Shown: positions 7,212 to 24,229 of the stretch, one piece after another
Layout: each line of letters starts with the position of its first letter
Position numbering within the stretch: the stretch's first letter is position 1
From: Ignavibacteria bacterium RIFOXYB12_FULL_35_14
Lineage (GTDB): Bacteria > Bacteroidota > Ignavibacteria > Ignavibacteriales > Ignavibacteriaceae
DNA: 32,961 nucleotides
Assembly: GCA_001803045.1 (NCBI GenBank)
Contig: MHAR01000039.1
Location: 1-32,961, forward strand
Direction: 5' to 3'
The notes under the pieces: model-generated
The model's input: only the letters and a program-made list of their open reading frames with translations
Told to the model about the DNA's origin: nothing
Database searches by the model: none
Position numbers and translations under genes: made by a program

Positions 7212-9338
7212 ATGATTCGTCACATTTCTGCTGAAAATTTATTGCGAAACCTCAAAGTGCAACTGCTGCTTGTATTCGCGGCGGTGTTGTTCATTTTGAA
7301 ATTATTCTTCTCACCGGTTGAATCATTCGGCCTCATCCTACTCAACGAAGCATTAGTAATTTCGGCGGTAGCTTTCCTTCTTTTTTCTATAAACGATTTT
7401 ATAAGCAGCGGTAAATTTAATTTACTGTCACTTGTTATGAATCTTGGCATATTAAATGCGATCATGTTCTTTTTCATAACCTTTTCGGACTCAATTCTCA
7501 ATTTGTTTTATAGCAATCTCGGCGACAAAATTAAAAATCCCGATTTAATTTACACGATAATATCCTTTTTCTATGTTTCAATTTTTGTCAGCTCGCTCTG
7601 TTACATTTTTTTAACATTCAAACAATTTTACTTTACCGGGCACAAATACGAGCGCAGCATTTATTTCAACACTATGACAATATTCTTTCTGTTATCGGTA
7701 TCTACTGCCTTTTTAGATAAATTTCCCGAATTATCATACATCAACCATACTTTTTTAATAATCTCGATAATATTAATCGGAATCAATTCGATTAGAATTT
7801 CTTGGATTGCCTTTTTATCGAAGAAGGAAAAATTGCTCCTGCTAATTTTATCTGTTGTGATCTTGACTTTGTTTATACTGAATCTTATAAAAAGCGGTGA
7901 CGATACTACACACTATAAAATATTAAATGGCTTTTCACCCGCTCTCAATAATTTTTTACAATTGATGATGATTTATGGGATAGGATATTTCAGCATATTA
8001 TTCTTTACAACATTGTTTCATATTCCTACAGCAGAAGCTTACGATCGCAAAGCAAAGGAAGTTTCTTCTCTTCAATATTTCAGCCGTTTAATTACACAGG
8101 TATTAGACTTTAATGATTTAGCAGAAACAATCACTGATATTGCTATTAAGGTTTGTAATGCAGATGCCAGTTGGATTTCATTGAAGCAAGATGGTGAGAG
8201 CAGGATAGTTGCAAATAAAAATATAGGTTTTGTTGATGCTGATTCCATTACAAAATATATTTTGAATGAATCCAAACCATCACTTGAGAAATTGGAAAAG
8301 ACTATTTACCAGTTAAGTCCGCTTCATGATATTCCACAATTATCAGAAAAATATTCAAGCTTAACTGTCTCCATTCTCCGAGTTCACTCGGAAATTAAAG
8401 GGTACCTATTTGCTGCAAAAAAAGGCGATTCGATATTTGATGATGAAGATAAGGATGCTCTTAATACATTCACCGATTATGCATCTGTTGCAATTGAAAA
8501 TGCAAAGCTGCTTGAAGAATCGATTGAGAAACAAAGGCTTGAAAAGGAATTGGATGTTGCCCGCGAAATTCAAAAAAAAATATTACCGAGCAAAAATCCC
8601 GAATATGACGGCTTAGACATATCTTCTACATTTATTCCTGCTTTTGAAGTTGGCGGCGATTACTACGATTTCTTTGAGATAACAGAAAACAAACTCGGTT
8701 TTGTAATTGCAGATGTATCGGGCAAAGGTATCAGTGCAGCGTTTATAATGGCTGAAGTAAAAGGAATTTTTGAATCACTTTCCCAAACTTCGCTGTCGCC
8801 CAAAGAAATTCTTATCAATGCTAACCAAATATTAAGAAGAACTTTAGACAGAAAAAGTTTTGTAAGCGCGGCGTATGGTCTGCTCGACCTTAATGAACAA
8901 AAACTATTTTTAGCTCGTGCCGGTCATTGTCCAATTCTGCTTCTTCGTGATGGTGTTACGCAAGATATAAGACCATCGGGTTTAGGATTAGGTTTGAACT
9001 ATACAGCATATTTTGCTTCAACTCTCGAAGAAATCAAGTTGGATCTTAAAGAGAATGATGTTTTAGTTTTATTTACTGATGGTATAACTGAGGCGAAAAA
9101 TTCCGAGAAGGAAGATTTCGGAGAAATGAATTTTGAAAAAATATTAATTGAAAATAGTCATCTAAGCGCAGAAGAAATATCAAATGAAGTTATAAAAGGA
9201 GTAACATTATTTTCTCAGAACACAACACAGCATGATGATATTACTTTAGTTATTTTTAAGTTTAAACAAAAGTTTAATTTATTTGGAGAAAAAGAATGGC
9301 AGAATTCAGTACTTCAATCAAAGACCAGGGTAATATAA
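7212..9338 (+). CDS. Membrane GAF-SpoIIE (PP2C) phosphatase
   Basis: This 708-aa protein has about seven or eight TM segments in residues 15-270, a GAF-like domain at about 290-435, a short coiled linker, and a SpoIIE/PP2C-type serine phosphatase domain at about 455-690. Metal-binding signatures GGDYYD (481-486), ADVSGKG (500-506), FTDGITEA and HDDITLVIF are intact. Such RsbU/SpoIIE enzymes dephosphorylate STAS antagonists. The next gene encodes a STAS protein and starts 43 nt inside this one, so their translation is probably coupled. The start lacks a clear Shine-Dalgarno sequence. The signal sensed is unknown. Confidence 0.9.
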   Translation: MIRHISAENLLRNLKVQLLLVFAAVLFILKLFFSPVESFGLILLNEALVISAVAFLLFSINDFISSGKFNLLSLVMNLGILNAIMFFFITFSDSILNLFYSNLGDKIKNPDLIYTIISFFYVSIFVSSLCYIFLTFKQFYFTGHKYERSIYFNTMTIFFLLSVSTAFLDKFPELSYINHTFLIISIILIGINSIRISWIAFLSKKEKLLLLILSVVILTLFILNLIKSGDDTTHYKILNGFSPALNNFLQLMMIYGIGYFSILFFTTLFHIPTAEAYDRKAKEVSSLQYFSRLITQVLDFNDLAETITDIAIKVCNADASWISLKQDGESRIVANKNIGFVDADSITKYILNESKPSLEKLEKTIYQLSPLHDIPQLSEKYSSLTVSILRVHSEIKGYLFAAKKGDSIFDDEDKDALNTFTDYASVAIENAKLLEESIEKQRLEKELDVAREIQKKILPSKNPEYDGLDISSTFIPAFEVGGDYYDFFEITENKLGFVIADVSGKGISAAFIMAEVKGIFESLSQTSLSPKEILINANQILRRTLDRKSFVSAAYGLLDLNEQKLFLARAGHCPILLLRDGVTQDIRPSGLGLGLNYTAYFASTLEEIKLDLKENDVLVLFTDGITEAKNSEKEDFGEMNFEKILIENSHLSAEEISNEVIKGVTLFSQNTTQHDDITLVIFKFKQKFNLFGEKEWQNSVLQSKTRVI

Positions 9339-9649
9339 ACATAGTATATCTCAAGGGATTTTTGGATGCTCACACAGCACCCTCGCTTGAGAACACCTTT
9401 TCCGGTTTGGTTGATAAGGGCAGATATCAAATTGTTGTAAACTTTAAAGACCTTGCATACATAAGCAGCGCGGGTTTAGGAGTATTCATGGCTTTTATTG
9501 AAAAGATCAGAGAAAACAATGGCGATATCAAGCTCTCAAGCATGAGCGATAAAGTTTTTAACATTTTCGATTTGCTCGGCTTTCCGCTTCTTTACGAAAT
9601 ATTTAAGACAGAAGAAGAGGCGGTTAAAAAATTTAATGAGATAAAATAA
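9296..9649 (+). CDS. STAS-domain anti-sigma factor antagonist
   Basis: This 117-aa RsbV/SpoIIAA-like protein has the STAS core, with the phospho-acceptor segment YISSAGLGVFMAF (S57 or S58). Its ATG lies 43 nt inside the 3' end of the phosphatase gene and has a GGAGAAAAAG ribosome-binding sequence, so the start is well supported. It sits between a phosphatase that would activate it and an RsbW-like kinase that would phosphorylate it. This is the expected middle component of a partner-switching module. Confidence 0.93.
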   Translation: MAEFSTSIKDQGNINIVYLKGFLDAHTAPSLENTFSGLVDKGRYQIVVNFKDLAYISSAGLGVFMAFIEKIRENNGDIKLSSMSDKVFNIFDLLGFPLLYEIFKTEEEAVKKFNEIK

Positions 9650-9650
9650 A

Positions 9651-10097
9651 TTGAGAACAAGTAAAACCAAATCGAAGCAAAAACAGCTTCTTATTAAAAG
9701 CAGAACCGAAAACTTAACTACTGTAAGGGAATTCGTAAGCTTGGCTGTTGAAGAGGTTAATATTCCTCAAGACATTGCAGGCGATATTGTGCTGGCCGTT
9801 GATGAAGCTTGTACAAATATCATCAAGCATGCGTACAAATTTTTCCCGGATGGTGATATTACTATTCAATTAAAATATTCTGAAAAAAACATTAAAGTAA
9901 AAATCACCGATCACGGTGCATCTTTTTCTCCCGAATCTGTTCCGACTCCAGATCTGAAAAAATATTTTGAAGAAAAACGCGTTGGCGGACTTGGAATGTA
10001 TCTGATGAAATCGCTGATGGATGAGGTACATTATAAATCTGTTCCCGGTAAATACAACCAGGTTCTACTAACCAAGAAGTTAAATTCAACCAATTAA
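9651..10097 (+). CDS. RsbW-like anti-sigma serine kinase (GHKL ATPase)
   Basis: This 148-aa HATPase_c domain protein is of the RsbW/SpoIIAB type. The N-box DEACTNIIKHAY (51-62, with E52 and N56), the G1 box ITDHGASF (85-92) and the G2 box GGLGMYLMK (112-120) are visible. The start is TTG at 9651, one base after the preceding stop; no suitable ATG exists upstream in frame. Such kinases bind either a sigma factor or an unphosphorylated STAS protein. Which sigma factor it controls cannot be seen; the nearby ECF factor already has its own anti-sigma-like partner. Confidence 0.9.
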   Translation: MRTSKTKSKQKQLLIKSRTENLTTVREFVSLAVEEVNIPQDIAGDIVLAVDEACTNIIKHAYKFFPDGDITIQLKYSEKNIKVKITDHGASFSPESVPTPDLKKYFEEKRVGGLGMYLMKSLMDEVHYKSVPGKYNQVLLTKKLNSTN

Positions 10098-10098
10098 C

Positions 10099-11775
10099 AT
10101 GAATGATTCTGAAAATCTTAAAGCAAGAAGAAATTTAAAGGCTCTTGTTGAGCTAAGCAGAGTTATAAATTCAAGTCTCGATCTAGAATTCATTTTAAAT
10201 AATCTTTTACTTACTTGTCTCGGAAAATTTCTTACCACAAGAGGATTTATTGCACTTAATTTAAATGGCTCACTTCAACCTAGAGCTAAAAAGGGAATAA
10301 CCGATGAACAATTTCAAAATTTTCCGGTAATAAAAAACAAAACCGAATTGCAGAGTGAACAATTCAAAGAATATTTAACTTCCATTAATATCTTGGCATT
10401 TGATGAAATATGTTCCTTCCAGGAATGTCTCGGAATAATTGCCTTAGGAGAAAAATTAAACAAGGCTCCATATTCGGATGATGATCTAGAATTTTTGCAT
10501 ACAATCACAAACATTGCTGCAACAGCCATTCAAAACTCGCTTATGCTGAGTGAACTAAAGAAAACCAATCGAATTCTTGATTCAAGAATTAGCCGTCTTA
10601 ATTCCCTTTTTGAATTGAGTAAAGAATTCGGTTTGTTTTCAGAATCTACGAAGGTAGCTAGACTTTTAGTTTATTCTGTCATTGGGCAGTTTCTCGTACA
10701 AAAATTTGCGGTTGTATCATTCGAAGGTAAGAACTTAAAGATTTTAGAATCCAAGTTCCCACAAGATGAATTATTAAATGCTCTCAAAAATTGTAACACT
10801 AAACTCATAACTAGTTCGATTTCTAAAAAAGAAATTGAAGCGGATTATACTGATTTGCAAAAATTTGGTATTGAGCTTATTGTACCCATGCAGCTTCAAG
10901 GCGAAACAAAAGGATTAATACTTTTGGGAAAACGAGCAAGCGAATCTGAATATTCAGAAGCTGATATCGAGTACATATATTCAGTTGGAAGCTTAGCAAT
11001 TGTGTCGATTGAGAATCAAAGATTATTTAAAGAAGCATTAGAAAAACAAAAGCTTGAAGAAGATTTAGAAATTGCTCATGATATTCAGAAGAATCTTCTT
11101 CCGCATAAAATCCCTCAGTTTACCAATTTTAATGTAGTTGCCAACACTGTATTCTCAAAGCAAGTTGGCGGTGATTATTACGATGTTATCACGTTAGATA
11201 ATAATAATTTCTGTATTGCCATTGCAGATGTATCCGGTAAAGGCGTTTCTGCCGCATTAATGATGGCTAATCTGCAGGCATTCTTAAAAACGATTTGCAA
11301 ACAGGGCATGCAAATTGACGAAGCTACCGGTTTGATCAACGATCTGATCACAGAAAATACAACTGAGGGAAAATTCATAACATTTTTCTGGGCAATAATT
11401 GAAAATGACAGCAAGCAAATGCTTTATGTTAATGCAGGACATAATCATCCATTATTGATCAGGAAAGGGAAAATTAAAAAATTAGATAAAGGCGGAATTA
11501 TTCTTGGTGTAATGAACACTATGATTCCTTACATCTCCGAACGGCTGCAGCTTGAAACGGATGATGTAATGATTTTGTTCACTGATGGTGTCTCTGAGGC
11601 AATGAATCAAAAAGGAGAAGAATTTACAGATGAAAGATTGGAAAAATTAAGTTTAAGTTTGGTTGAAAAGCCAGCAAAAGATATTTCCGATACAATTCAG
11701 AAGGAAGTAAGTAAATTCGCTTACGGTACAGTTCAATCGGATGATATTACGTTGATGGTTATAAAAGTTAAGTGA
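10099..11775 (+). CDS. Soluble GAF-GAF-SpoIIE (PP2C) phosphatase
   Basis: This 558-aa protein has no TM segment. It has a GAF-like domain at about 12-150, a second at about 165-310, a helical linker (EALEKQKLEEDLEIAHDIQ) and a SpoIIE/PP2C phosphatase domain at about 330-556. GGDYYD (357-362), ADVSGKGVSAA, LFTDGVSEAM and SDDITLMVIK are intact. The ATG follows the kinase stop by one base, so it is the last gene of the 7212-11775 operon. It gives the module a second, cytoplasmic input alongside the membrane phosphatase. GAF ligands cannot be predicted from sequence. Confidence 0.9.
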   Translation: MNDSENLKARRNLKALVELSRVINSSLDLEFILNNLLLTCLGKFLTTRGFIALNLNGSLQPRAKKGITDEQFQNFPVIKNKTELQSEQFKEYLTSINILAFDEICSFQECLGIIALGEKLNKAPYSDDDLEFLHTITNIAATAIQNSLMLSELKKTNRILDSRISRLNSLFELSKEFGLFSESTKVARLLVYSVIGQFLVQKFAVVSFEGKNLKILESKFPQDELLNALKNCNTKLITSSISKKEIEADYTDLQKFGIELIVPMQLQGETKGLILLGKRASESEYSEADIEYIYSVGSLAIVSIENQRLFKEALEKQKLEEDLEIAHDIQKNLLPHKIPQFTNFNVVANTVFSKQVGGDYYDVITLDNNNFCIAIADVSGKGVSAALMMANLQAFLKTICKQGMQIDEATGLINDLITENTTEGKFITFFWAIIENDSKQMLYVNAGHNHPLLIRKGKIKKLDKGGIILGVMNTMIPYISERLQLETDDVMILFTDGVSEAMNQKGEEFTDERLEKLSLSLVEKPAKDISDTIQKEVSKFAYGTVQSDDITLMVIKVK

Positions 11776-11888
11776 AAATTTTTTGTATGATTATATCTAA
11801 GATTTAGCCCGAATAAATTCTAGGGAGTGATCGGATACCGGATGCAAGAAACCTTACCAATCTTAATTCTAGATATTGCTGTACAATC

Positions 11889-12078
11889 AATAAGCTAATA
11901 AGGTCAAACTATCACATATTCGATTGTTACTAAGGTTAGGAAAAATTAGGATAAGGTCTAGCATTAGACCCAATGACATCAATAATGGTACAGAAATAAA
12001 AATGAAAGAGGAATTATATAAAATGAAAACCTTAGTAACGGTGACAGGCAACCAATTTATCAACCTTATTAGCTTATT
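11889..12078. repeat. Nested palindromic element A (190 bp)
   Basis: Outer arms AATAAGCTAATAAGGT (11889-11904) and ACCTTATTAGCTTATT (12063-12078) are perfect 16-bp reverse complements. Inner arms GTTACTAAGGTT (11926-11937) and AACCTTAGTAAC (12028-12039) are perfect 12-bp reverse complements. A third hairpin, GGTCTA/TAGACC, lies at 11955-11970. A 26-codon frame with an upstream GAGG lies at 12002-12082 and may be chance. The element fills most of the 351-nt gap 11776-12126 between two phosphatase genes. Related sequence lies at 28804-28918. No transposase is present. Confidence 0.65.
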
Positions 12079-12126
12079 ATAAATCAATAAATTGTATGAT
12101 AAAAACTTAGACGAGAAATTTAAACC

Positions 12127-14667
12127 ATGCAAAGCATAAAAAATTTTCTTGAAAAAAATCAGAAAGGGATAGTTATTATCTCGTTCATCCTGTTGTTTTG
12201 TATTGGACTTGTAAATTTTGCGTTCATTTTCATAATAAACGCAACTTCCAACGATGAGTGTCTATGGATACCAGAAAAGGCAGGTAAAGACAGTGTAATC
12301 ATAGTATTTGATAAGGTTAAAGTAGATGGTGTTGCGTGGAAGGCAGGAATCCGGGATGGGGATCAGCTTATTACCATAAAGAATATCAATATCCATGATA
12401 TTTTTAAAGCACAAAGAATTCTCAATGAATTTAAGAAAGGTCAATTAGCGGATTATACAATTAAAAAAGGCGATAAACTTCTTAACACAAAAGTTGAGAT
12501 CAAGAAACTAATCAAAATGGATCAATTCGCTTTTATGCTGATGGCTCAAATTTGGTTAATTATCGGATTCATCGTCTTAATGGCTCGTCCCAATGGTTAT
12601 ATTCAAAGATTATTTTATAAGATCAGTGCGGCTTTCATTGTTTTATTTACCTCAGTCTATTTCTTAGGATTAGGAACCGATGTCTCTCGAATTTATTTTT
12701 ATATGCTGGATTATATTTGGACCATCGGAGGATTTTATGCATCATTTCTAATTCTCCGATTCTTTTGGAGTTTTCCGCAGTCATTTAAGTTTGCTGAAAA
12801 AAAATGGGTGAAAAAATTATTACAAATCGCTCCGATTGTTTTGATCATTGCTTCATACATTGTGCGTCATATTTTTGTGTATCCTTATGAAGGTTTTAAT
12901 AATGTTGCTCTCGGAATAATTATTGTAAATAATATTTTGATATTTACTGCGCTTGTAACGGGATTAGTTTCCCTGTATATCAACTATTTCCGAATCAAAG
13001 ACAAAGCTCAGCGTAAACCAATTTATATTATTCTTTTTGCTTACACCTTAGGAGTTGCAAGTTTACTTTATACAAGCTTTATTGCCCCAGCAATTTCTGA
13101 TACTATCTTTAATTCTCCAGAATATTATACTCCGATTATTGTTATTGCCTTTCTACCAATTGCTTTTGGTTATTCAATTTTTAGATATCAATTGATGGAT
13201 GTTAGCATTGTCATAAAGAATGCAATAATTTACGGGGCAGCTACATTAACAATTGCAGCAGCTTACTTTTTGGTAATTTATCTCTTAGGGCAGGGAATAA
13301 GTCAGGCGATTGGAACTCAATATCAAGGAATTATAGCAGGTATTGTATTCATAATATTTGCTTTGGTTTTTCAATCAACTAAAGACAAATTCCAAAATTT
13401 TTTAACAGCAAAATTTTATCCCGAACAGTTTGCGTATCAAAAAGTACTTGTAAAATTCAGCACCGATATCTCCAGCGTGGTTGGGCTTGAAAATATTCTC
13501 GACAAAACATATGAGACATTCACCAATGCTCTTAAGATTAATAACTTCGGCATTATGGTTAGAGGAAACAATAATGGTGATTTGGTTTTAGTGAGAAGCA
13601 AAGGAATCAAGAATAAAGAAATTACTATCAGCCAATCGAATGTAAGCGAATTTATTGAGCAGAAAAAATCGTTATCAAAATTACCCTCCATCGAACGGGA
13701 AGAGTTTGTGAGTGTATGTAAAGAAAAAAGTGTTAGCTTGGTTGAAAATGATATCTATACAATAATTCCAATGATTGTAAAATCAAAAGTTGTTGGAGTA
13801 TTGCTTTTCGGATTAAAACATTCCGGTGCACAATTTTCTTATGAAGATTTAGAACTTTTAAATGCAGTAGCAAACCAAGCAGCAATATCAGTTGAGAATG
13901 CACGTCTATATGAAACCGAGAAACAAAAACTTTCTATTGAAAGAGATCTTGATCTTGCAAGAAAAATTCAGCAAGGATTATTGCCAGGCTGTATACCTAA
14001 AGTAAATAAGTTAGACATTTGCGGACAAATGATTCCTGCTATGCAAGTTGGCGGCGATTATTATGATCTTATAAAAATTTCCGACACAAAAATATTTGTA
14101 GTTGTTGGTGATGTTTCGGGTAAAGGACTTTCTGCTTCTTTGTACATGGCTAAGCTGCAGACAATGATACAGCTTGCATGCACTATTGACAAAACACCCA
14201 AACAAATTTTAGTTGATATAAATAAAAGACTTTATGAATCGCTCGAGCGAAGCTGGTTTGTTACAATGACTCTTGCGCTATTTGACAGCAGCACCAACAC
14301 TGTGAAGTTTTGCCGTGCCGGTCATATGCCTTTGATTACTGCAAATAATGGAGCCATCAATTCCTATAAATCTAAGGGAATTGGAATTGGATTGGAAAGC
14401 GGAATTATTTTTGAAAGCAGCTTAGTCGAAGAAGAAGTCAGCTTTAGTCATGGACAAATCTTTGCATTCTTTTCGGATGGAATAACCGAAGCAATGAATG
14501 AATCGAATGATCTTTTTGGTGAAGAAAAACTTTCTGAACTCCTGAAAAACAAATCCGTAAAAAGTTCTAATGAGTTGATGGATGAAATTTGGGAATCTAT
14601 AACTCAGTTCAGAGGACAAGCCGAACAAAGCGATGACATGACGATGGTGTTAGTAAAGGTAGTATAA
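12127..14667 (+). CDS. PDZ-membrane-GAF-SpoIIE (PP2C) phosphatase
   Basis: This 846-aa protein has a first TM at about 13-38 and then a PDZ-like domain at about 50-125 (DGVAWKAGIRDGDQLITI), which should lie outside the cytoplasm. It continues with about eight TM segments (about 132-430), a GAF-like domain at about 440-600, and a SpoIIE/PP2C phosphatase at about 610-845. GGDYYD (about 642-647), GDVSGKG, FSDGITEA and QSDDMTMVL are intact. A PDZ outside the membrane coupled to a phosphatase inside suggests sensing of envelope peptides or misfolded protein, which is inference. Element A separates it from the upstream operon, so it is probably transcribed on its own. Confidence 0.9.
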   Translation: MQSIKNFLEKNQKGIVIISFILLFCIGLVNFAFIFIINATSNDECLWIPEKAGKDSVIIVFDKVKVDGVAWKAGIRDGDQLITIKNINIHDIFKAQRILNEFKKGQLADYTIKKGDKLLNTKVEIKKLIKMDQFAFMLMAQIWLIIGFIVLMARPNGYIQRLFYKISAAFIVLFTSVYFLGLGTDVSRIYFYMLDYIWTIGGFYASFLILRFFWSFPQSFKFAEKKWVKKLLQIAPIVLIIASYIVRHIFVYPYEGFNNVALGIIIVNNILIFTALVTGLVSLYINYFRIKDKAQRKPIYIILFAYTLGVASLLYTSFIAPAISDTIFNSPEYYTPIIVIAFLPIAFGYSIFRYQLMDVSIVIKNAIIYGAATLTIAAAYFLVIYLLGQGISQAIGTQYQGIIAGIVFIIFALVFQSTKDKFQNFLTAKFYPEQFAYQKVLVKFSTDISSVVGLENILDKTYETFTNALKINNFGIMVRGNNNGDLVLVRSKGIKNKEITISQSNVSEFIEQKKSLSKLPSIEREEFVSVCKEKSVSLVENDIYTIIPMIVKSKVVGVLLFGLKHSGAQFSYEDLELLNAVANQAAISVENARLYETEKQKLSIERDLDLARKIQQGLLPGCIPKVNKLDICGQMIPAMQVGGDYYDLIKISDTKIFVVVGDVSGKGLSASLYMAKLQTMIQLACTIDKTPKQILVDINKRLYESLERSWFVTMTLALFDSSTNTVKFCRAGHMPLITANNGAINSYKSKGIGIGLESGIIFESSLVEEEVSFSHGQIFAFFSDGITEAMNESNDLFGEEKLSELLKNKSVKSSNELMDEIWESITQFRGQAEQSDDMTMVLVKVV

Positions 14668-14769: not shown

Positions 14770-16329
14770 ATGACTAACAACAACTCTAAATCACTAGAAT
14801 CCTGGATTTGGGATGCTGCGTGCGCCATTAGAGGAGCACAAGACGCACCCAAGTACAAAGACTTCATACTACCACTAATCTTTGTTAAACGCCTCTGTGA
14901 TGTATTCGATGATGAAGTCAGTCGAGTTGTCGAGAATGTTGGCTCAAAAGAAAAAGCCCTAAAGCTAATTGCCAAAGACCGTAAGCTCACACGTTTCTAC
15001 ATACCACTTCGACCTGAAAATCTGGACGAATCCACCTGGTCGGTTATCCGAAAATTATCTTCAAAAATAGGTGAACAGCTTACCGATTTTATGCGCTCGA
15101 TAGCTCGTGAGAATTCGAGATTGCAAGGAATTATTGACCGAATAGATTTTAACGCCACTACACACGGACAGCGAGATATTGAAGATGATAGACTAAGCAA
15201 TCTTATTGAGGAGATAAGTAAAAAAAGATTAGGTCTTAACGATGTTGAACCGGATATAATCGGAAGAAGCTATGAATATCTAATCCGTAAATTCGCTGAA
15301 GGCGGTGGACAGAGTGCCGGAGAGTTTTATACTCCAATGGAAGTTGGTTTAATTATGGCACGAATACTTGACCCTGAACCCGGAATGGAAATGTACGATC
15401 CCTGTACCGGCTCTGCTGGATTGCTAATTAAACTTCAGATTGCACTTCAAGAGAAGATGAACTTACGCGCAAAAACTAAATATGCACCGTTGAAGCTCTA
15501 CGGACAAGAGTATTTAGCGAACACGTGGGCAATGGCTAACATGAATATGGTTATTCACGATATGGAAGGTATTATCGAAATTGGCGATACAATGAACAAT
15601 CCCAAATTTCGGGAAGGAAATAAACTCAAAAAGTTTGATCGTGTTGCTGCTAATCCGATGTGGAACCAAAGCTTATTTAACCAAAAGACTTATGAAAACG
15701 ACGAACTAGAAAGATTTCCTGCTGGCTATCCGCCAAACGGAACCGCCGATTGGGGATGGGTGCAGCATATTCTCGCTTCTTTGAATGATTCCGCCAGAGG
15801 CGGAGGAAGGGCAGCCATTGTTTTAGATACTGGAGCAGTCTCACGAGGATCGGGGAACCAAAGCACAAATAAAGAAAAAGAAATCCGTAAGTGGTTTGTT
15901 GAAAACGATTTTATTGAAGGTGTTCTTTATTTACCAGAGAATCTTTTTTACAATACTTCTGCACCTGGTATAGTTCTATTCCTCAATAGAAATAAACCAT
16001 CCGGTAAGAAAGATAAAATTTTACTCATTAATGCTTCCAAAGATTTTATTAAAGGACAGCCCAAAAACTATATACAGGAAGAAAACCAAAAAAAAATTGT
16101 CGATACTTTCCTTAATTGGCAAGAGATTGAAAAGTTTAGCAAGATAATAGCCAAAGATGAAGTTGTAAAAAATGATTATAACTTATCTCCGACCCGATAC
16201 ATTCACACAGCCGATGAAGAAGTTTACAGACCAATTGGAGAAATTTTAGAAGAACTTAAAGAACTCGAACAAGAATCAAAAGACATTGATGGAGAATTGA
16301 AAATTATTTTTCAGAAATTAGGTTATTAA
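14770..16329 (+). CDS. hsdM: Type I restriction-modification methyltransferase subunit HsdM
   Basis: This 519-aa protein has the HsdM N-terminal helical domain (about 8-150) and an N6-adenine methyltransferase domain. AdoMet motif I is DPCTGSAG (210-217). The catalytic motif IV is ANPMWNQ (NPMW at 295-298) in place of the more common NPPF/NPPY. GEFYTP before motif I is typical of HsdM. It forms the modification core with HsdS and, with HsdR, the restriction complex. It is the first gene of the operon, followed after 29 nt by the PIN-like gene. The neighbouring genes hsdS and hsdR confirm the assignment. Confidence 0.95.
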   Translation: MTNNNSKSLESWIWDAACAIRGAQDAPKYKDFILPLIFVKRLCDVFDDEVSRVVENVGSKEKALKLIAKDRKLTRFYIPLRPENLDESTWSVIRKLSSKIGEQLTDFMRSIARENSRLQGIIDRIDFNATTHGQRDIEDDRLSNLIEEISKKRLGLNDVEPDIIGRSYEYLIRKFAEGGGQSAGEFYTPMEVGLIMARILDPEPGMEMYDPCTGSAGLLIKLQIALQEKMNLRAKTKYAPLKLYGQEYLANTWAMANMNMVIHDMEGIIEIGDTMNNPKFREGNKLKKFDRVAANPMWNQSLFNQKTYENDELERFPAGYPPNGTADWGWVQHILASLNDSARGGGRAAIVLDTGAVSRGSGNQSTNKEKEIRKWFVENDFIEGVLYLPENLFYNTSAPGIVLFLNRNKPSGKKDKILLINASKDFIKGQPKNYIQEENQKKIVDTFLNWQEIEKFSKIIAKDEVVKNDYNLSPTRYIHTADEEVYRPIGEILEELKELEQESKDIDGELKIIFQKLGY

Positions 16330-16358: not shown

Positions 16359-18452
16359 ATGAAAAACATCTCCAATAAAACAGTTACGTACAGTTTGTTG
16401 GCTCATATTAATGACCATAGTTATGGCATAAAAGATCTTTCAGACATTTTTATTCCATTAGTTAAAAGAACTCTAGCAAAAATGGGTGAGAATGGTTTTA
16501 TTCAAGGTGAACACATTAAGGAGATTAAAACTAATGTTGATGAAATGTGTCATTTGGATATTCCTTTTCCCTTACTGGATAAAATATTATATAAAATTTC
16601 GACTGATATTAGGAATAATCAAGGAACTCAATTTTCTATATATAATGACAAATCATTTCAGATAAATAACTATATCTTTATAGATTACGAAGAAGAAATA
16701 ATAAAAACAGAATCTGAAATTGAGAAAATAGAATATTTATTTAACTCTTATCTCGAACTAAAAGGAGTAAAAGCTAGTCCAGACAATTCACTTTTTGAAT
16801 TTATTGATAAAAATAGAATTCAATTATTTGATTATTTCGTGAAAAAGAAACTTAGTGAGTCCGAAAAAGATTTTTATTTACAAGCAGAATTTTTATCAAA
16901 AATCAAATCTGATCCCATTTTATATAAAACACTCTGTAGAATATACCTTGGTTCAATAATTTCAAGCTTTTTAGCATTTGAGCCAGAAGAGTTAACTGAT
17001 AAAAGCGATAAAGAATTCGTTCTAGACACAAACTTTATTATTAGTTTGCTAGATTTAAATTCTAATGAGGCTACACATACATGTGGGAAAATTGTTGAAA
17101 TCTGTAAAAGGTTAAATTATAGAGTTACTGTACTTGATTATACTATTGAAGAATCTAAAAACTTAATCGATAGAACAGCTGATAGTATTGAGACCGCATT
17201 TCTATCCAAAAAACTAGATCCCGAAAGCATCTTTAACGCCTGCGACAGAAGAAATTTATCTAAGACAGATTTACAAAGAATATCAGCCATTTTAGAAGAT
17301 ACTTTAAAGAATGAATTTTCTATAAACATTCTTTATGATACTTCAAAATTCAGAAACATGGCTAAGTATAGCAAAGAATATGAAGTGTACAAAAATGTGA
17401 GGTCAACAAATTGGAGTGCGCTACACGATGCTACAGCAGTTAAATACATACAATCAAAAAGGGGTAAAGTGTGTAAAGATTTTTTTACTGCCAATTGTTT
17501 TTTTGTTACAAATACTAGTAGAGATTTTAAGCCTTTAATAGAAAATGAAAACATATCAGAATTAATAAGGGCCGAGGATTTAGTTAATATATTATGGTTA
17601 ACCAATCCTAATGTTAAGCTTAATCTCAATAATGATGAGCTAACACAAATGGGCTTAAGCAAACTTATTTCATCTTCTTTGAATAGTAAACTGCCAAGCT
17701 CAAAAATCATAAAAGAACTTGAAGAAAACATTCGAAAATATGCTCAACACAAAATAACTGACAAAGACATAATTCGAGTTGGAAATAGAATTGCCGATAA
17801 GACTCTAACTAATCTTGAACAATTAAATAAGATAGCAGATAAAGATCCTGATAAGTTTATTGAAAAATTAAATGAGGAGGCCCGAAAAGAAGAGAAAAAG
17901 GAAAAAGAGTTTTTTAATAAGTTAAATAAAATGTTAAAAGATATTGCAATTAAATCTGACGAACGCTCAAAACTGACTAAGGAATTGTTACAGAAAGAGT
18001 TTAACGATGCTAGGACTTCTTTAGAAATGAAAACGAGTGAAAAAATCACAGCCCTAACTAAAGATAAAAATGAGGAAATAAATAATTTAAAAATTCAGAG
18101 ATTCTCTGAACTGAATGCCATTAAAAAGTCTTATGATTCGTATGTATCTAAAAAATCCTTGATTTATTTAGGACTAATCACACTCCCTCCACTTTTGATA
18201 ATGTTATCTTTTATCATCTTTATTGATTTTCCTAAAATTGAATGGATTATTGTTGGATGTTACGTAGTCTATAATATAATAACCTATTTTTATTTTGTGA
18301 TAACGAGAAAACAATGGTCTCTTCTGGAATTTTATAATACACTTTTAGATAAAAACAAAAATAAAATATATAGTAAATTTAGTTTTGACCTAGAAGAATA
18401 TCATAAATTGGAAAAAGAAATCTCCGCTAAGGATGAAACTCAAACAAACTGA
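16359..18452 (+). CDS. PIN-like nuclease-domain protein with coiled coil and two C-terminal TMs
   Basis: This 697-aa protein sits between hsdM and hsdS and overlaps hsdS by 20 nt. Residues 1-215 resemble nothing I know. Residues about 218-395 look like a PIN domain: FVLDTNFIISLLD (D223), YTIEES (E264 or E265), LHDATAVKYIQ (D357) and FFVTNTSRDF (N385/D389) are placed like the acidic residues of PIN RNases. A charged helical stretch at about 480-600 is likely a coiled coil. Two TM segments lie at about 601-622 and 627-649, with a charged C-terminal tail. I infer a membrane-anchored nuclease linked to the R-M system. The PIN call rests on motif spacing only. Confidence 0.6.
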   Translation: MKNISNKTVTYSLLAHINDHSYGIKDLSDIFIPLVKRTLAKMGENGFIQGEHIKEIKTNVDEMCHLDIPFPLLDKILYKISTDIRNNQGTQFSIYNDKSFQINNYIFIDYEEEIIKTESEIEKIEYLFNSYLELKGVKASPDNSLFEFIDKNRIQLFDYFVKKKLSESEKDFYLQAEFLSKIKSDPILYKTLCRIYLGSIISSFLAFEPEELTDKSDKEFVLDTNFIISLLDLNSNEATHTCGKIVEICKRLNYRVTVLDYTIEESKNLIDRTADSIETAFLSKKLDPESIFNACDRRNLSKTDLQRISAILEDTLKNEFSINILYDTSKFRNMAKYSKEYEVYKNVRSTNWSALHDATAVKYIQSKRGKVCKDFFTANCFFVTNTSRDFKPLIENENISELIRAEDLVNILWLTNPNVKLNLNNDELTQMGLSKLISSSLNSKLPSSKIIKELEENIRKYAQHKITDKDIIRVGNRIADKTLTNLEQLNKIADKDPDKFIEKLNEEARKEEKKEKEFFNKLNKMLKDIAIKSDERSKLTKELLQKEFNDARTSLEMKTSEKITALTKDKNEEINNLKIQRFSELNAIKKSYDSYVSKKSLIYLGLITLPPLLIMLSFIIFIDFPKIEWIIVGCYVVYNIITYFYFVITRKQWSLLEFYNTLLDKNKNKIYSKFSFDLEEYHKLEKEISAKDETQTN

Positions 18453-19785
18453 TATAGGTTTAATTCCTGATGATTGGGAAGTTATAAGATTTGGAGATAT
18501 TGCCGAGTTCAAAAACGGTATAAATTTTAGTAGCGATCAAAAAGGGGAAATCGGAATTCTTACTATCGATGTTCTAAATATGTATGGTGCTGGATATGCT
18601 GTTAAATTTGATAAATTATATAGAGTTGACAAAAAAATTGATAATAGTTATCTGCTTAATCAAGGTGATTTGTTATTTGTTCGTTCTTCATTAAAATTGG
18701 AAGGTGTAGGGTGGGCGGCTCTATTTCCTGGTAATAATGAACCCGCTACTTTTTGTGGATTTATTATTAGAGCAAGAATAGCAGAATCTGCCTTTAATAA
18801 AATATTCCTAACTTATCTTTTTAGGGTTGGTTCTATTCGTTCAAAGCTTATCTCTAGTTCTGCAAAACTTGGCATTACAAATATTAATCAAGGTAACCTT
18901 GGTAATATTCAAATACCAAAGCCCCCTCTCCTAGAGCAAAAAAAAATTGCCTACATACTTTCTAAAATTCAACAAGCAATTCAGACACAAGAACAGATAA
19001 TAAAAACTACTCAAGAACTTAAAAAAGCTTTAATGCAAAAACTCTTTACCGAGGGCTTGAACGGCGAGCCACAAAAGCAAACAGAGATTGGTCTAATCCC
19101 GGAAAGTTGGGAAGTTGTACAATTAGGTAGATATGCTAGAATATTAAATGGTTATGCATTCAAGAGTACAGCTTATGTCAAAAAAGGAATACCATTAATA
19201 CGGATCAGCAATGTATCGTTTGGATTTTTGATTGATAAGGATACAAAATATTTACCCAATTCGTATTTAACTAAGTACAATGATTATTCATTAAGGGAAG
19301 GCGATTTGATTTTATCCCTAACACGACCAATCACTTCTGGAGGGATGAAATATTGTTTCATTGAAAAAAAACATTTACCTACCTTAATGAACCAGCGTGT
19401 AGGAAGGTTCAAAATTATTGACAACAAACTTTCCAAAGAGTTTCTTTATCATCTCGTTTTTTCTAAATACTTTATTGGTGAATTACAAAAATTATTTGGC
19501 AGTTCATCTCAACAACCCAATGTAAGTCCAACTCAGTTAGAATCTTTTCTTGTCCCAATTCCAAGCAATCCTGAGCAAGTCGAAATTGCAAATTCATTGA
19601 CTAAACTCACCCTGAAGTACAGAAGTGCTGAGGATTCAATAATACTTCTAAAGGATCTTTTTAATAGTGCCTTGAATAAACTAATGACTGGTCAAATCCG
19701 TGTCAAAGATATGGAGTTTGAAATAGAAGAAAGCTTGGAAAAAGTCCCCTTCACGGAGGAACAAAACGGAGCTATCCCTTCTTGA
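18433..19785 (+). CDS. hsdS: Type I R-M specificity subunit HsdS
   Basis: This 450-aa protein has two target-recognition domains. Each begins with a matching segment (TDIGLIPDDWEVIRFGDI near residue 5; TEIGLIPESWEVVQLG near 217). Conserved helices follow each (EQKKIAYILSKIQQAIQTQE, and the C-terminal NSALNKLMTGQIRVKD). It sets the DNA sequence recognised by HsdM and HsdR. Its last six codons (NGAIPS) and stop lie inside the repeat at 19763-19808, so insertion of the DUF559 unit has given it a new C-terminus. The recognition helices are complete, so it is probably functional. A remnant of another hsdS 3' end lies at 20474-20536. Confidence 0.94.
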   Translation: MKLKQTDIGLIPDDWEVIRFGDIAEFKNGINFSSDQKGEIGILTIDVLNMYGAGYAVKFDKLYRVDKKIDNSYLLNQGDLLFVRSSLKLEGVGWAALFPGNNEPATFCGFIIRARIAESAFNKIFLTYLFRVGSIRSKLISSSAKLGITNINQGNLGNIQIPKPPLLEQKKIAYILSKIQQAIQTQEQIIKTTQELKKALMQKLFTEGLNGEPQKQTEIGLIPESWEVVQLGRYARILNGYAFKSTAYVKKGIPLIRISNVSFGFLIDKDTKYLPNSYLTKYNDYSLREGDLILSLTRPITSGGMKYCFIEKKHLPTLMNQRVGRFKIIDNKLSKEFLYHLVFSKYFIGELQKLFGSSSQQPNVSPTQLESFLVPIPSNPEQVEIANSLTKLTLKYRSAEDSIILLKDLFNSALNKLMTGQIRVKDMEFEIEESLEKVPFTEEQNGAIPS

Positions 19786-19812: not shown

Positions 19813-20193
19813 ATGAGAAGGAAAATAATCCCATACAACCCAAAACTAAAAGAAAAAGCAAGAGAGTTACGTAACAACAGCACCTTCACAGAGGTTATGG
19901 TATGGAATTACTTAAAGAATAAACAAATAAAAGGATATGATTTTCATCGTCAAAAACCACTTTACAATTATATTGTTGATTTCTTTTATAATGAGCTAAT
20001 GCTCGCAATTGAAATTGATGGAGAAAGTCATTATGGAAACGAAAAACATGATATTCGCAGGCAGAAAAGACTGGAGAATCTTGGTATAAGTTTTTTACGG
20101 TTCGATGATATGGAAGTAAGGCATCAACTGGATAAAGTCATTAAAAGAATTGAAGATTGGATTGATGATTTTGAAAAGAAAAGTAGTCGTTAA
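19813..20193 (+). CDS. DUF559 (Vsr-like, PD-(D/E)xK) endonuclease-fold protein
   Basis: This 126-aa protein belongs to the DUF559 family, which shares the fold of very-short-patch repair and PD-(D/E)xK nucleases. NNSTFTEVMVWNYLKNKQI near the N-terminus, YNYIVDFFYNELMLAIEIDG (catalytic-type D and ExD) and a C-terminal LGISFLRFDDMEV are typical. The function of such proteins is unsettled. Here it is bounded by inverted copies of a GC-rich repeat (19774-19805 and 20206-20235) and sits at the hsdS 3' end, so it looks like an inserted unit and not an original R-M gene. A weak AAAAAAG precedes the ATG. Confidence 0.85.
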   Translation: MRRKIIPYNPKLKEKARELRNNSTFTEVMVWNYLKNKQIKGYDFHRQKPLYNYIVDFFYNELMLAIEIDGESHYGNEKHDIRRQKRLENLGISFLRFDDMEVRHQLDKVIKRIEDWIDDFEKKSSR

Positions 20194-20970: not shown

Positions 20971-23916
20971 ATGCCACAAAGCTTCACCGAACATAAAACA
21001 GTCCAGCAAAGAATTTTAGATTATGCTCAAGAAATTGGCCTGCCTGGCGGCAAGGTAAACTGGCAGTTTATATCTCAATCCAGAGCAGAAGAACTTCGCC
21101 ACTTCGATATTTCAGCTTCATTACCGCAAGAAAGAATTAAAAGCTCGTCACTTTTTTTTAAGGATATTCTAACTCAAAAACTCACTGAGTTTAATCCGAA
21201 ACTAATAAACCCATCAGATATAATTTCTCAATTATCCTTACTTCGTTTTGACATTCAAGGCAATAAAGATTTTCTTGATTATTTGAGAGGTGATAAGAAC
21301 TACTTTAACACTGATGATAATCGAGAATATAATTTAAAGCTCATAGATTTTGAAAAACCCTCTAATAACATCTTTCAAATCACTGAAGAATACTATCACC
21401 ACAACGGACGTTACGGCAATCGTGAAGATGTAGTTTTTCTGGTTAATGGTATTCCATTGGTAGTTATCGAATGTAAAAATGCCACCAAAGATGAAGCTAT
21501 AGCAATCGGAATAGATCAGATAAGACGTTACCACAACGAAACACCGGAAATGCTCATACCACAGCAAATATTTTCAGTTACCGAAGCATTAGGTTTTTCT
21601 TATGGTGTAACATGGAATCTTAATCGCAAAAATCTTTTTAATTGGAGAGAGCACGAGATCGGTAATCTAGAATTGAAAATCAAAACATTCTTTAATCCCA
21701 ATGGGATATTACGGTACATAAAAAATTATATAATATTTGCAGAACAGAATGAAGAACTGAATAAGTACATACTTCGTCAGCATCAAGTTAAAGCAGTCGA
21801 AAAAGTAATTAGAAGAAGCATTGATGAAACTAAATCCCGTGGATTGATTTGGCATACACAAGGTTCCGGCAAGACATATACGATGATTAAAGCTGCTGAA
21901 ATTCTTTTTAAGCTTAAAGAAACAGATAAACCCACAATCATTTTACTTATTGACCGAAATGAGCTTGAAGATCAGATGATCAGAAATCTTACCTCATTAG
22001 GATTGAAGAACATCAAACATGCTGATCGAATTGTTAAACTGCGTGATCTTCTTAAGGAAGATTATCGTGGAATCATTATAAGCATGATTCACAAGTTTAA
22101 CGATATGCCTGAGAAGGTGAATCTTGGAAAGAATATTTATGTACTTGTTGATGAAGCACACCGCACAACATCCGGTGATCTTGGTAATTATCTAATGGCT
22201 GCTATTCCAAATGCAGCCTACATTGGTTTCACCGGAACACCGATTGATAAAACAGCTTATGGCAGAGGTACATTTAAGACTTTCGGAATTGATGATCCCA
22301 AGGGTTATCTCGATAAATACTCAATTTCAGATTCAATTGAAGATGGAACAACTGTACCGCTTTATTATTCACTTGCCCCAAATGATTTATTAGTTCCTGA
22401 AGAAACGCTTGAAAAAGAGTTTCTAGGTCTTGCTGAAGCTGAAGGCATTAGCGATATAGATGAACTGAATAAAATCCTCGAAAGAGCAGTTGTAACAAAA
22501 AACTTCCTTAAAGGTAAAAGGAGAGTAAAGAAAATTGCCAAGTTTATTTCAGAGCATTATAGAACCTACGTTGAAAATCTTGGTTATAAAGCTTTTGTTG
22601 TAGCTGTAGATCGTGAGGCATGTGCATTATACAAAAAAGCTTTGGATGAAAATTTACCTGCAGAATATTCTGAAGTTGTTTACACTGGGAACTATAACGA
22701 TTCAGAGGAACTGAAAAAGCATCACATCACGAAAGAAGATGAAAAGAGAATAAGAAAAAGTTTTTGCAAACCCGATCAATTCCCGAAGATTTTAATAGTG
22801 ACAGAAAAGCTCCTTACCGGTTTTGATGCACCAATTCTTTATGCAATGTATCTCGATAAACCTATGAGAGATCATACATTGTTGCAAGCAATCGCAAGAG
22901 TTAATCGTCCATACGAAACTGAGGGCGGTAAGCAGAAACCTTTCGGCTTTGTTCTGGATTTTATCGGAATCTTTGACAAGCTTGAAAAAGCTTTAGCTTT
23001 TGATTCAGATGATGTAAAGAGTGTTATCCGGGATATAGCTTTGTTAAAAACTCTTTTTCAGAATAAAATGGAAAAAGATACATTAAGATACGTCTCGTTA
23101 ATTAAAGGCACCTATGATGATAAGGATGTAGATATTCTAGTAAACCACTTTAAAGATAAATCTAAGAGAAAAGAGTTTTTCAAGTTCTACAAAGAATTAG
23201 AAATGCTTTATGAGATAATATCCCCCGATGCATTTATTAGACCGTACATAGATAATTATAAAACATTAACTCAAATCTATTATGTAGTTCGAAATGCTTT
23301 TGCAGATAGAGTCTATGTTGATAAAGAATTTCAGCGTAAGACGGCTGAACTTGTAAAGGAAAATGTTGATATAAAAATTCTAGGAACCGGAACTGAATTA
23401 GTTGGGCTTGATAAAGAAACAATTGATGCAATTAAAGCAAATAAAATTCCTGAGAATGTAAAAGTTATAAATCTTATTAAGAGCATCGAGAAAATTGCAG
23501 AGAAGGAAAGCGATGATCTTACTTTGATATCACTAAAGGATAAAGCTCATCAGATACAAGAAGATTATGAAGATAGAATAATTTCTACGGAAGAAGCGCT
23601 TGATAAGTTAAAAGGAATCTTAGACGGTATAAGTGAGAAAGAAGAAAAGCAGAAGCAAAAAGGTTTAGATGATTTAGAGTATTTTCTATCTGAGAAACTA
23701 ACCGAAGTTGGAATAAAAAACTCAGATGAAACAGCAAAGAAATTCAAAACCGCTTTCAATGAATATCCTAACTGGAATAAAAGTGAGGCATCTGCAAGAG
23801 AATTAAGGTTGAAACTATACGGAATTCTTTTGGACGAAATAGATGATATAGATAAGGCAAATGCCTTGATAGATCACTTGTTTAACCTGTTTATTAAAGC
23901 AAATGAAAAGCAGTAA
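20971..23916 (+). CDS. hsdR: Type I restriction endonuclease subunit HsdR
   Basis: This 981-aa protein has the HsdR nuclease domain at about 100-240: REDVVFLVNG with D153, and VVIECKN with E167 and K169 of the PD-(D/E)xK site. The superfamily 2 translocase motor follows, with Walker A HTQGSGKT (295-302), VDEAHR (393-398), FTGTPI and the motif VI-like QAIARVNRPY. A helical C-terminus binds the methylase core. It translocates and cuts unmodified DNA. The length is typical and all catalytic motifs are intact. Its 3' end overlaps the YgjP-like gene by 14 nt. It is separated from hsdS by the DUF559 unit and scar sequences. Confidence 0.96.
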   Translation: MPQSFTEHKTVQQRILDYAQEIGLPGGKVNWQFISQSRAEELRHFDISASLPQERIKSSSLFFKDILTQKLTEFNPKLINPSDIISQLSLLRFDIQGNKDFLDYLRGDKNYFNTDDNREYNLKLIDFEKPSNNIFQITEEYYHHNGRYGNREDVVFLVNGIPLVVIECKNATKDEAIAIGIDQIRRYHNETPEMLIPQQIFSVTEALGFSYGVTWNLNRKNLFNWREHEIGNLELKIKTFFNPNGILRYIKNYIIFAEQNEELNKYILRQHQVKAVEKVIRRSIDETKSRGLIWHTQGSGKTYTMIKAAEILFKLKETDKPTIILLIDRNELEDQMIRNLTSLGLKNIKHADRIVKLRDLLKEDYRGIIISMIHKFNDMPEKVNLGKNIYVLVDEAHRTTSGDLGNYLMAAIPNAAYIGFTGTPIDKTAYGRGTFKTFGIDDPKGYLDKYSISDSIEDGTTVPLYYSLAPNDLLVPEETLEKEFLGLAEAEGISDIDELNKILERAVVTKNFLKGKRRVKKIAKFISEHYRTYVENLGYKAFVVAVDREACALYKKALDENLPAEYSEVVYTGNYNDSEELKKHHITKEDEKRIRKSFCKPDQFPKILIVTEKLLTGFDAPILYAMYLDKPMRDHTLLQAIARVNRPYETEGGKQKPFGFVLDFIGIFDKLEKALAFDSDDVKSVIRDIALLKTLFQNKMEKDTLRYVSLIKGTYDDKDVDILVNHFKDKSKRKEFFKFYKELEMLYEIISPDAFIRPYIDNYKTLTQIYYVVRNAFADRVYVDKEFQRKTAELVKENVDIKILGTGTELVGLDKETIDAIKANKIPENVKVINLIKSIEKIAEKESDDLTLISLKDKAHQIQEDYEDRIISTEEALDKLKGILDGISEKEEKQKQKGLDDLEYFLSEKLTEVGIKNSDETAKKFKTAFNEYPNWNKSEASARELRLKLYGILLDEIDDIDKANALIDHLFNLFIKANEKQ

Positions 23917-24229
23917 AAAGCAGCGAAATATATTGCTACAAAAAGCCGATTTTAAGAAAAGGGTAGTCAAGTATGCCAAGCAGATAGATATCCCTTTGAA
24001 AAGCATCTCTGTGCGGCCTATGAGCCGTAAATGGGCTTCCTGCTCAACTGCTGGTAACCTAAACTTTAATTCTGAGCTTCTAAAAATGCCTAAAAAACTA
24101 GGTGATTACGTTATAGTTCACGAGCTTCTACATTTCCATGTCTCCAACCATGGCAAGCTCTGGAAAAGCCTCATGCGAGCATATTTAGGAGATTATGAGA
24201 AGTTGGAGAAGAGGTTATCAAAATACTAA
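23903..24229 (+). CDS. Short YgjP-like (DUF45) zinc metallopeptidase
   Basis: This 108-aa protein has HELLHFHVSNHGKLW, with HExxH at 73-77 and a third possible ligand H83. RKWASCSTAGNLNFN upstream is typical of the YgjP/DUF45 family (SprT-like metallopeptidases). Usual members are about 230 aa, so this is a short form lacking the N-terminal half. It overlaps hsdR by 14 nt and must be made with it. DUF45 genes next to hsdR are a recurrent pairing; the role is not known and could be turnover of the restriction subunit. Confidence 0.85.
   Translation: MKSSKKQRNILLQKADFKKRVVKYAKQIDIPLKSISVRPMSRKWASCSTAGNLNFNSELLKMPKKLGDYVIVHELLHFHVSNHGKLWKSLMRAYLGDYEKLEKRLSKY

Follow-up and report, generated by a model that had tools for sequence, protein, structure and literature searches.

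We lean toward reading the gene that lies between hsdM and hsdS in a type I restriction-modification (R-M) operon of an Ignavibacteria bacterium, here called X, as encoding a PIN-like endoribonuclease effector that acts autonomously from a membrane tether, is most likely anti-phage, and is carried as interchangeable cargo in the hsdM-hsdS slot. This reading builds on computed features: a PIN-like fold in a homologue, a conserved D/E/D set of residues, a hydrophobic C terminus, the cargo position, and a spread of relatives over plasmids and phyla.

X is an ATG-initiated open reading frame (ORF) at 16359-18452 on the forward strand, without an internal stop. As the preliminary description had it, and as the ORF and Pfam calls bear out, this 697-amino-acid (aa) gene lies between hsdM and hsdS and overlaps hsdS by exactly 20 nt; 29 nt separate it from hsdM. 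The operon order is hsdM, X, hsdS, DUF559, hsdR, YgjP. The features of the operon and of the X protein, in coordinates of the window (the whole 32,961-nucleotide stretch of DNA that was analyzed), are as follows.

14770-16329, forward strand: hsdM (Pfam N6_Mtase, 4.1e-91; HsdM_N, 3.4e-22).
16359-18452, forward strand: X, a PIN-like protein with a charged helix and C-terminal hydrophobic segments (ORF, hydropathy, homologues).
16359-16973, forward strand: N-terminal domain of X, about residues 1-205, helical in a low-confidence model; a putative sensor.
16974-17600, forward strand: PIN-like domain of X, about residues 206-414 (profile, homologue model, conserved residues).
17847-18149, forward strand: charged helical (coiled-coil-like) stretch of X, residues 497-597 (composition, low-confidence model).
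18168-18302, forward strand: hydrophobic segments of X, residues 604-648 (Kyte-Doolittle, 19-residue window).
18433-19785, forward strand: hsdS (Methylase_S, 4e-30), starting 20 nt inside X.
19813-20193, forward strand: DUF559 endonuclease-like cargo in the hsdS-hsdR gap (Pfam).
20971-23916, forward strand: hsdR (domain searches).
23903-24229, forward strand: YgjP-like metallopeptidase (Pfam), found after hsdR in 7/7 cousin operons compared.

The GC content of X is 28.0%, versus 38.8% for hsdM, 34.1% for hsdR, and 34.1% for the window. A promoter and terminator scan revealed no forward terminator between hsdM and hsdR; predicted promoters were at the level of shuffled sequence (37 versus 37.6), and the 10 terminator-like sites (4.7 expected) were all on the minus strand. 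Two ORFs on the opposite strand inside X, at 17333-17731 (132 aa) and 17744-18049 (101 aa), probably arise by chance in AT-rich DNA. Upstream of hsdM, the block at 7212-14667 contains genes for SpoIIE-type phosphatases carrying GAF and PDZ parts, for a STAS protein (9296-9649), and for a HATPase (9651-10097), and looks like a partner-switching stress-signaling module.

Comparison with cousin operons showed that X is cargo in a swap slot. Eleven genomes of the window's family have a close hsdM, and seven of these were compared; the other four are the window's own genome, G396 (where the contig ends), and G415 and G424 (36%). Two hsdM copies at 36 to 37% in G441 also lay outside the comparison. 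HsdM identity to the window was 96% in one cousin (G452), 82 to 83% in four, and 66 to 67% in two. X was absent from all seven operons, including the one with the 96%-identical HsdM, which has an empty junction: there the hsdM stop and the hsdS start line up with those that flank X in the window. Counting ORFs of at least 80 aa, the hsdM-hsdS gap was empty in two cousins and held other genes in five, and the hsdS-hsdR gap was filled in six. Since X is missing from the cousins, other genes sit in the same gap, the closest cousin has an uninterrupted junction, and the GC content of X is low, we regard X as cargo.

The other occupants of these gaps are varied. We scanned 10 of the 15 ORFs of at least 80 aa in the seven cousins and found Schlafen-AlbA, DUF6978, DUF1828/1829 (two), DUF3800, a UG13b reverse transcriptase, a YhcG nuclease, ORF6N (two), and one protein without a known family. 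Eight of the 10, taken over both gaps, strongly matched PADLOC models for defense or candidate defense systems. Cargo differs between most of the seven genomes (L058-L064), and we conclude that the hsdM-hsdS and hsdS-hsdR gaps are both swap slots. A BLAST match of 71 residues between X and an ORF6N cargo protein sits near the charged stretch and was rejected. The DUF559 gene recurs (L061; L008:14163-14618), is 81% identical in the hsdS-hsdR gap of G232, and accompanies an X homologue in the operon of G247. In the window the YgjP-like gene shares 14 nt with hsdR, and in each of the seven cousins (L058-L064) it either follows hsdR or overlaps it; it is a conserved gene at the tail of this operon.

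The suggestion that X is not a standard R-M part is thus upheld by its absence from every cousin operon compared; the further suggestion that it has a fixed place inside such an operon finds no support, the gap being a variable cargo slot and most relatives showing no type I or type III gene in the flank examined (see below). It is extremely improbable that X is a genuine, conserved accessory subunit of the type I enzyme encoded here. Its position and its overlap with hsdS fit such a role, and nothing else does; X is missing from the seven cousins, and among 80 genomes of the window's family only its own has X (three before two coil-only matches were dropped). The accessory-subunit reading is largely refuted.

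X is more than a chance ORF: BLAST and profile searches found homologues that span most of its length. It matches a G247 protein over residues 145-570 (E = 9e-9), is colinear with a Paenibacillus protein over residues 142-641 (E = 0.002), and shares 35 to 41% identity with the two pieces of a frame-broken copy in G017; these matches tie X firmly to the other members. The G017 copy (L007:8714-10712) is split into two frames at an A run and could be a pseudogene, an assembly error, or a case of phase variation. Homologues occur in the same phylum as the window; relatives of the family protein P0002 lie on plasmids of Enterococcus, Klebsiella, Pantoea, Sporosarcina, Arthrobacter, and Hymenobacter; and further members were found in Paenibacillus oryzisoli, in a Chloroflexi MAG, and on two virus contigs. 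The family is sparse, with 11 of 318 genomes in one order (center G017 included; 15 before coil-only matches were dropped). The 27 aligned members are 634 to 709 aa long, with the strongest hydrophobic stretch starting at 84 to 94% of the length, and identity to X across 12 family proteins is 14 to 26%.

We dropped eight matches before counting (G180, G369, G389, G458, G957, G945, G972, and G126) because none extended beyond the helical part, the membrane part, or some short stretch; three of them had stops. Six Enterococcus plasmids were treated as one locus, a Listeria plasmid match covering 32% of the query was kept outside the counts, and L106 was retained although it is a weak member (profile E = 6.8e-7). 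The resulting 29 loci include the broken L007 and L042, which is cut by a contig end; both are outside the 27-protein alignment. A single-protein scan of genome contigs found no relative, nor did four scans of viral sequences, and tblastn found no relative of X in plasmids and none of P0004 in phages.

Three of the loci have neighbors worth recording. A virus-contig homologue adjoins a phage terminase small subunit gene (L040:9962-12790), another homologue lies beside a TraQ-type conjugation gene and near ArdA (L031:6984-10676), and on the Sporosarcina plasmid (L023:8932-16751) the copy is about 1.2 kb from genes annotated as nucleotidyltransferase, ThiF, Mov34, and SAVED, which look like a CBASS system.

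Database families gave X no name. No Pfam family scored above its cut-off, none of the matches was to PIN, and no HsdM, HsdS, or HsdR domain was detected; Pfam likewise gave no ATPase family at E ≤ 1. No PADLOC or NCBIfam family matched at E ≤ 0.1, and the PHROGs matches were all at E ≥ 0.038. For the family proteins P0002 to P0007, no Pfam family was above cut-off, and matches in PADLOC and PHROGs were weak; X was the sole family member used as a query in the NCBIfam search.

We consider that X very probably has a PIN-like fold, as had been proposed, and base this on structure comparison with VIA-align, profile comparison, and motifs taken together. In the family protein P0006, Pfam PF13470 (PIN_3) matched the D223 motif with an E value of 5.9e-4 and a score of 21.1, under the cut-off of 27, and no single stretch passed alone. 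When family residues 205-290 were compared by hhalign with 12 PIN_3-type proteins, the probability was 85 (E = 6.2e-6), a score matched by none of 60 column shuffles, with D223 in register with the PIN aspartate and E265 with a conserved glutamate column. The 12 proteins were taken from relatives; two are below the PIN_3 cut-off, and one lacks the first 21 positions. The N- and C-terminal regions of the family gave nothing against the same proteins, and the half containing D357 (residues 340-395), taken alone, gave a probability of 0.5 and aligned out of register.

An AF2 model of full-length X from four sequences reached a pLDDT of 42.8, with only a strand-helix-helix-strand-helix order visible around D223 and E265, and at that pLDDT it was discarded as evidence for the fold. 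Residues 195-470 of the Paenibacillus homologue L043 (four sequences) modeled better: the best of five models, with a pLDDT of 70.3 and a pTM of 0.70, has the PIN order of strands and helices, and two of the five were poor (44.5 and 41.1). In the VIA-align list for this model, rows 1 to 22 are PIN or PIN-like, by title or, for some, by what is known of those proteins, and the first other protein is at row 23 (Z = 6.7). The best match was HARP RNase P (Z = 8.8, rmsd 3.8, 131 aligned), and other PIN-type matches were VapC toxins, PRORP, FitB, Nmd4, and an exosome subunit. A Z score near 8 can reflect a common arrangement; we accepted it because the list is consistent and the sequence evidence is independent. 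Foldseek with the same model gave no match at E ≤ 0.001; its first row was an arginyl-tRNA synthetase (E = 0.13), and HARP RNase P (E = 0.23 and 0.36) was among its highest-placed PIN-type rows. When PDB chains were searched by sequence, with X and with the family profile, no PIN protein appeared up to E = 10. SPF27, the best PDB profile row (E = 0.0017, over the stretch from D357 to VTxN), was taken as a chance match.

VapC toxins rank high among the structures that match the PIN region of the homologue, and relatives occur on plasmids; both observations would fit X being a VapC-like toxin of a toxin-antitoxin pair that stabilizes an operon or a plasmid. We regard this as very improbable. With ORFs of at least 80 aa listed, the 29 nt on the hsdM side and the overlap with hsdS leave no room for a same-strand antitoxin gene, and X, at 697 aa with other parts, is far longer than VapC-type chains of 131 to 145 aa.

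The preliminary description had picked out D223, E264, E265, D357, N385, and D389 as PIN-like acidic or polar residues. Three of these stood: position 223 is D in 26 of the 27 aligned members and E in one, E265 is conserved in 26, and D357 in 21. The other three are not conserved (E264 in 9 of 27, N385 in 6, and D389 in 4). A fourth and more conserved position is instead column 386, in an F-V-T-x-N strand that follows D357; it is N in 17 members, T in 4 (X has T), S in 3, D in 2, and A in 1, so that N or D occupies it in 19/27. R368 is invariant (27/27), and W413 is present in 26 with one gap, both within the PIN-like domain.

All six members of one clade (L030, L031, L032, L103, L104, and L105) lack D357 while keeping D or E at 223 and E265; the clade may be inactive or may use another metal ligand. 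This clade with its other conserved positions kept, the variability of the fourth position (N, D, T, S, or A), and the housekeeping or unfamiliar genes near eight copies would be expected if X were PIN-like without being a nuclease, serving a structural, RNA-binding, or membrane-scaffold role or some other housekeeping or mobile-element function. We think this unlikely: D223 and E265 persist in 26 of 27 members despite identities to X as low as those given above, and D357 is present in all 21 members outside the one clade. X is, in our view, likely to be an active nuclease. Of the two targets proposed in the preliminary description, where X could serve as a second arm that cuts RNA or DNA once restriction fails, RNA is the more probable one for a PIN domain.

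The remaining parts of X were also largely as first described. In residues 497-597, 45 of 101 are K, R, D, or E, and the low-confidence AF2 model makes the stretch a single long helix, in line with the charged helical stretch proposed. Hydropathy exceeds the threshold at 604-622, 616-634, and 630-648, a region that we read as the two C-terminal segments claimed and that, judged from sequence, may form a two-helix hairpin in the membrane that leaves the PIN domain on the cytosolic side. At least two such hydrophobic segments were found in 12 of 16 family proteins tested, and a single one in four. The N-terminal domain has conserved positions (P33 in 20 of 27 members, P69 in 26, G198 in 26), and a short stretch of it weakly recalls winged helices (4trb, E = 0.022; AbiEi in P0002, E = 0.021; both subthreshold); its putative role is that of a sensor. 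Two matches to the mostly helical part from residue 442 onward were set aside, a subthreshold Pfam match to MCU, the mitochondrial calcium uniporter (E = 0.0075), and a PDB match to ribosome recycling factor (E = 0.16).

We then asked how the family is placed relative to R-M genes. Of 29 loci, three are in type I operons, two adjoin type III genes, one is 4 kb from type III genes, and 23 have no type I or III gene in the flank examined, which for 5 of the 28 loci other than the window is shorter than 2 kb on one side. Because the R-M profiles were built from five to eight type I and two type III sequences, with five adjoining loci contributing, and can miss divergent R-M genes and types II and IV, the linkage count is a lower bound. 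Besides the window, the type I cases are G247 (hsdR-DUF559-hsdM-hsdS-X, X following hsdS by 7 nt) and P. oryzisoli (hsdR-hsdM-hsdS-X, by 131 nt). The type III cases are G185 (mod-YhcG-X-res), a Hymenobacter plasmid, where X is on the opposite strand, and G849, at 4 kb. Eighteen other genomes that carry X contain 38 HsdM_N domains between them; one X there lies within 10 kb of an HsdM_N, which chance might well produce (P = 0.18), and a direct adjacency is mildly unusual (P = 0.043, assuming four slots per operon and 1.1 kb per gene). In a tree drawn without printed support values, the members linked to R-M genes are distributed over three separate clades, and the linkage has thus probably arisen more than once. 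Around eight Bacteroidota copies (seven without R-M genes in the flank, plus G849), ten proteins were scanned; they were housekeeping or unfamiliar, and none belonged to a defense family; the case for a defense role therefore rests on the R-M, plasmid, and phage examples.

This distribution also weighs on the idea that X guards the R-M system as PrrC does, with HsdM and HsdS silencing X until a phage anti-restriction factor frees it to cut RNA. The codirectional, tightly packed position with its overlap of hsdS, the two further homologues in type I operons (G247 and P. oryzisoli), and the PrrC precedent, as given in the accessible text of PMC3874165 and PMC2610378, all speak for a guardian. 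We consider it distinctly unlikely, given that most loci lack R-M genes, that the place of X varies (hsdM-X-hsdS or hsdR-hsdM-hsdS-X), that the linked members are spread over separate clades, that cousin R-M operons do without X, and that proximity to HsdM_N has the P values given above. By analogy, X could even found a new class of membrane-anchored guardians, a PIN RNase silenced by HsdM and HsdS and freed once the restriction complex meets incoming phage DNA or an anti-restriction protein, so that a membrane-bound nuclease unrelated to PrrC would have come to a similar role; this is quite improbable.

For X as an autonomous effector, we infer catalysis, an RNA substrate, membrane insertion, oligomerization, a trigger, and a defense role as follows. 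The N-terminal domain would sense an infection cue, the long charged helix would multimerize X on the inner membrane, and the C-terminal hydrophobic hairpin would anchor it there. The PIN-like domain, through D223, E265, and D357, would then cut RNA and halt the cell, and the outcome would be growth arrest or abortive infection. That so many relatives lie apart from R-M genes suggests that X does not need restriction; it would be useful alone and sometimes captured by R-M operons, gaining coexpression.

Payne et al. 2024 is said to be a survey of defenses embedded in type I R-M operons. That preprint lies outside the literature on embedded and PIN-type defense considered here, in the accessible text of which we recognized no description of a PIN plus membrane-hairpin family; the novelty of the X family is accordingly provisional. 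With the PIN superfamily (VapC, FitB, HARP RNase P, PRORP, and SMG6/Nmd4), it shares the homologue's central fold, the D/E/D residues, and the FVTxN strand near the fourth position. It differs in its long N-terminal domain, charged helix, and hydrophobic C terminus, and no PIN match of the family reaches the Pfam cut-off. The spacing between the second and third acidic residues differs as well: counted by eye, the PIN_3 protein L066 has 48 residues where X has 92 between E265 and D357.

The comparisons that follow reflect the accessible portions of the papers cited. Like PrrC and RloC, X is a candidate RNase gene inside an hsd operon, and most of its relatives are outside such operons, as with RloC, for which 8 of 72 genes were in type I or III loci (PMC2610378). 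Unlike them, X is PIN-like rather than bearing the PrrC nuclease domain, no ATPase domain was found in it, and it has a predicted membrane anchor. PrrC is silenced by EcoprrI and freed by T4 Stp (PMC3874165, PMC2610378), and a review calls PrrC and PARIS R-M guardians (PMC12707154); by analogy, the PrrC precedent suggests how a gene such as X can become a guardian. TgvAB (PMC11411939) and DarTG2 with RptR (PMC12255303) resemble X in being independent defense modules lodged between hsd genes, although their protein families differ from X. PIN RNases linked to BREX, reported to be backup effectors (PMC12839542), are likewise encoded beside a DNA-modification defense; BREX is not a type I R-M system, and the likeness to X is by description only. 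DefensePredictor DS-3 and DS-5 (PMC13092281) are anti-phage systems with PIN domains, DS-3 being a single protein without an antitoxin; by description only, the PIN domain of DS-3 is split between the N and C termini and DS-5 consists of two proteins, whereas the PIN-like domain of X is central and its C terminus is hydrophobic. The same paper (PMC13092281) cites Payne et al. 2024 among works validating a PIN domain or HipA kinase.

These results add to the candidate defense effectors a widely scattered and, it seems, so far unnamed family of large proteins that are PIN-like and have hydrophobic C termini. They also show that two gaps of one type I operon lineage are swap slots, much of whose cargo is of a defense type: reverse transcriptase, YhcG nuclease, ORF6N, DUF1828/1829, DUF559, and X. 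Should X be an active RNase, it would represent a membrane-bound effector whose relatives lie within R-M operons as well as apart from them, among other places on Enterococcus faecium and Klebsiella plasmids, and whether it acts as a guardian or travels as a passenger would become a directly testable question.
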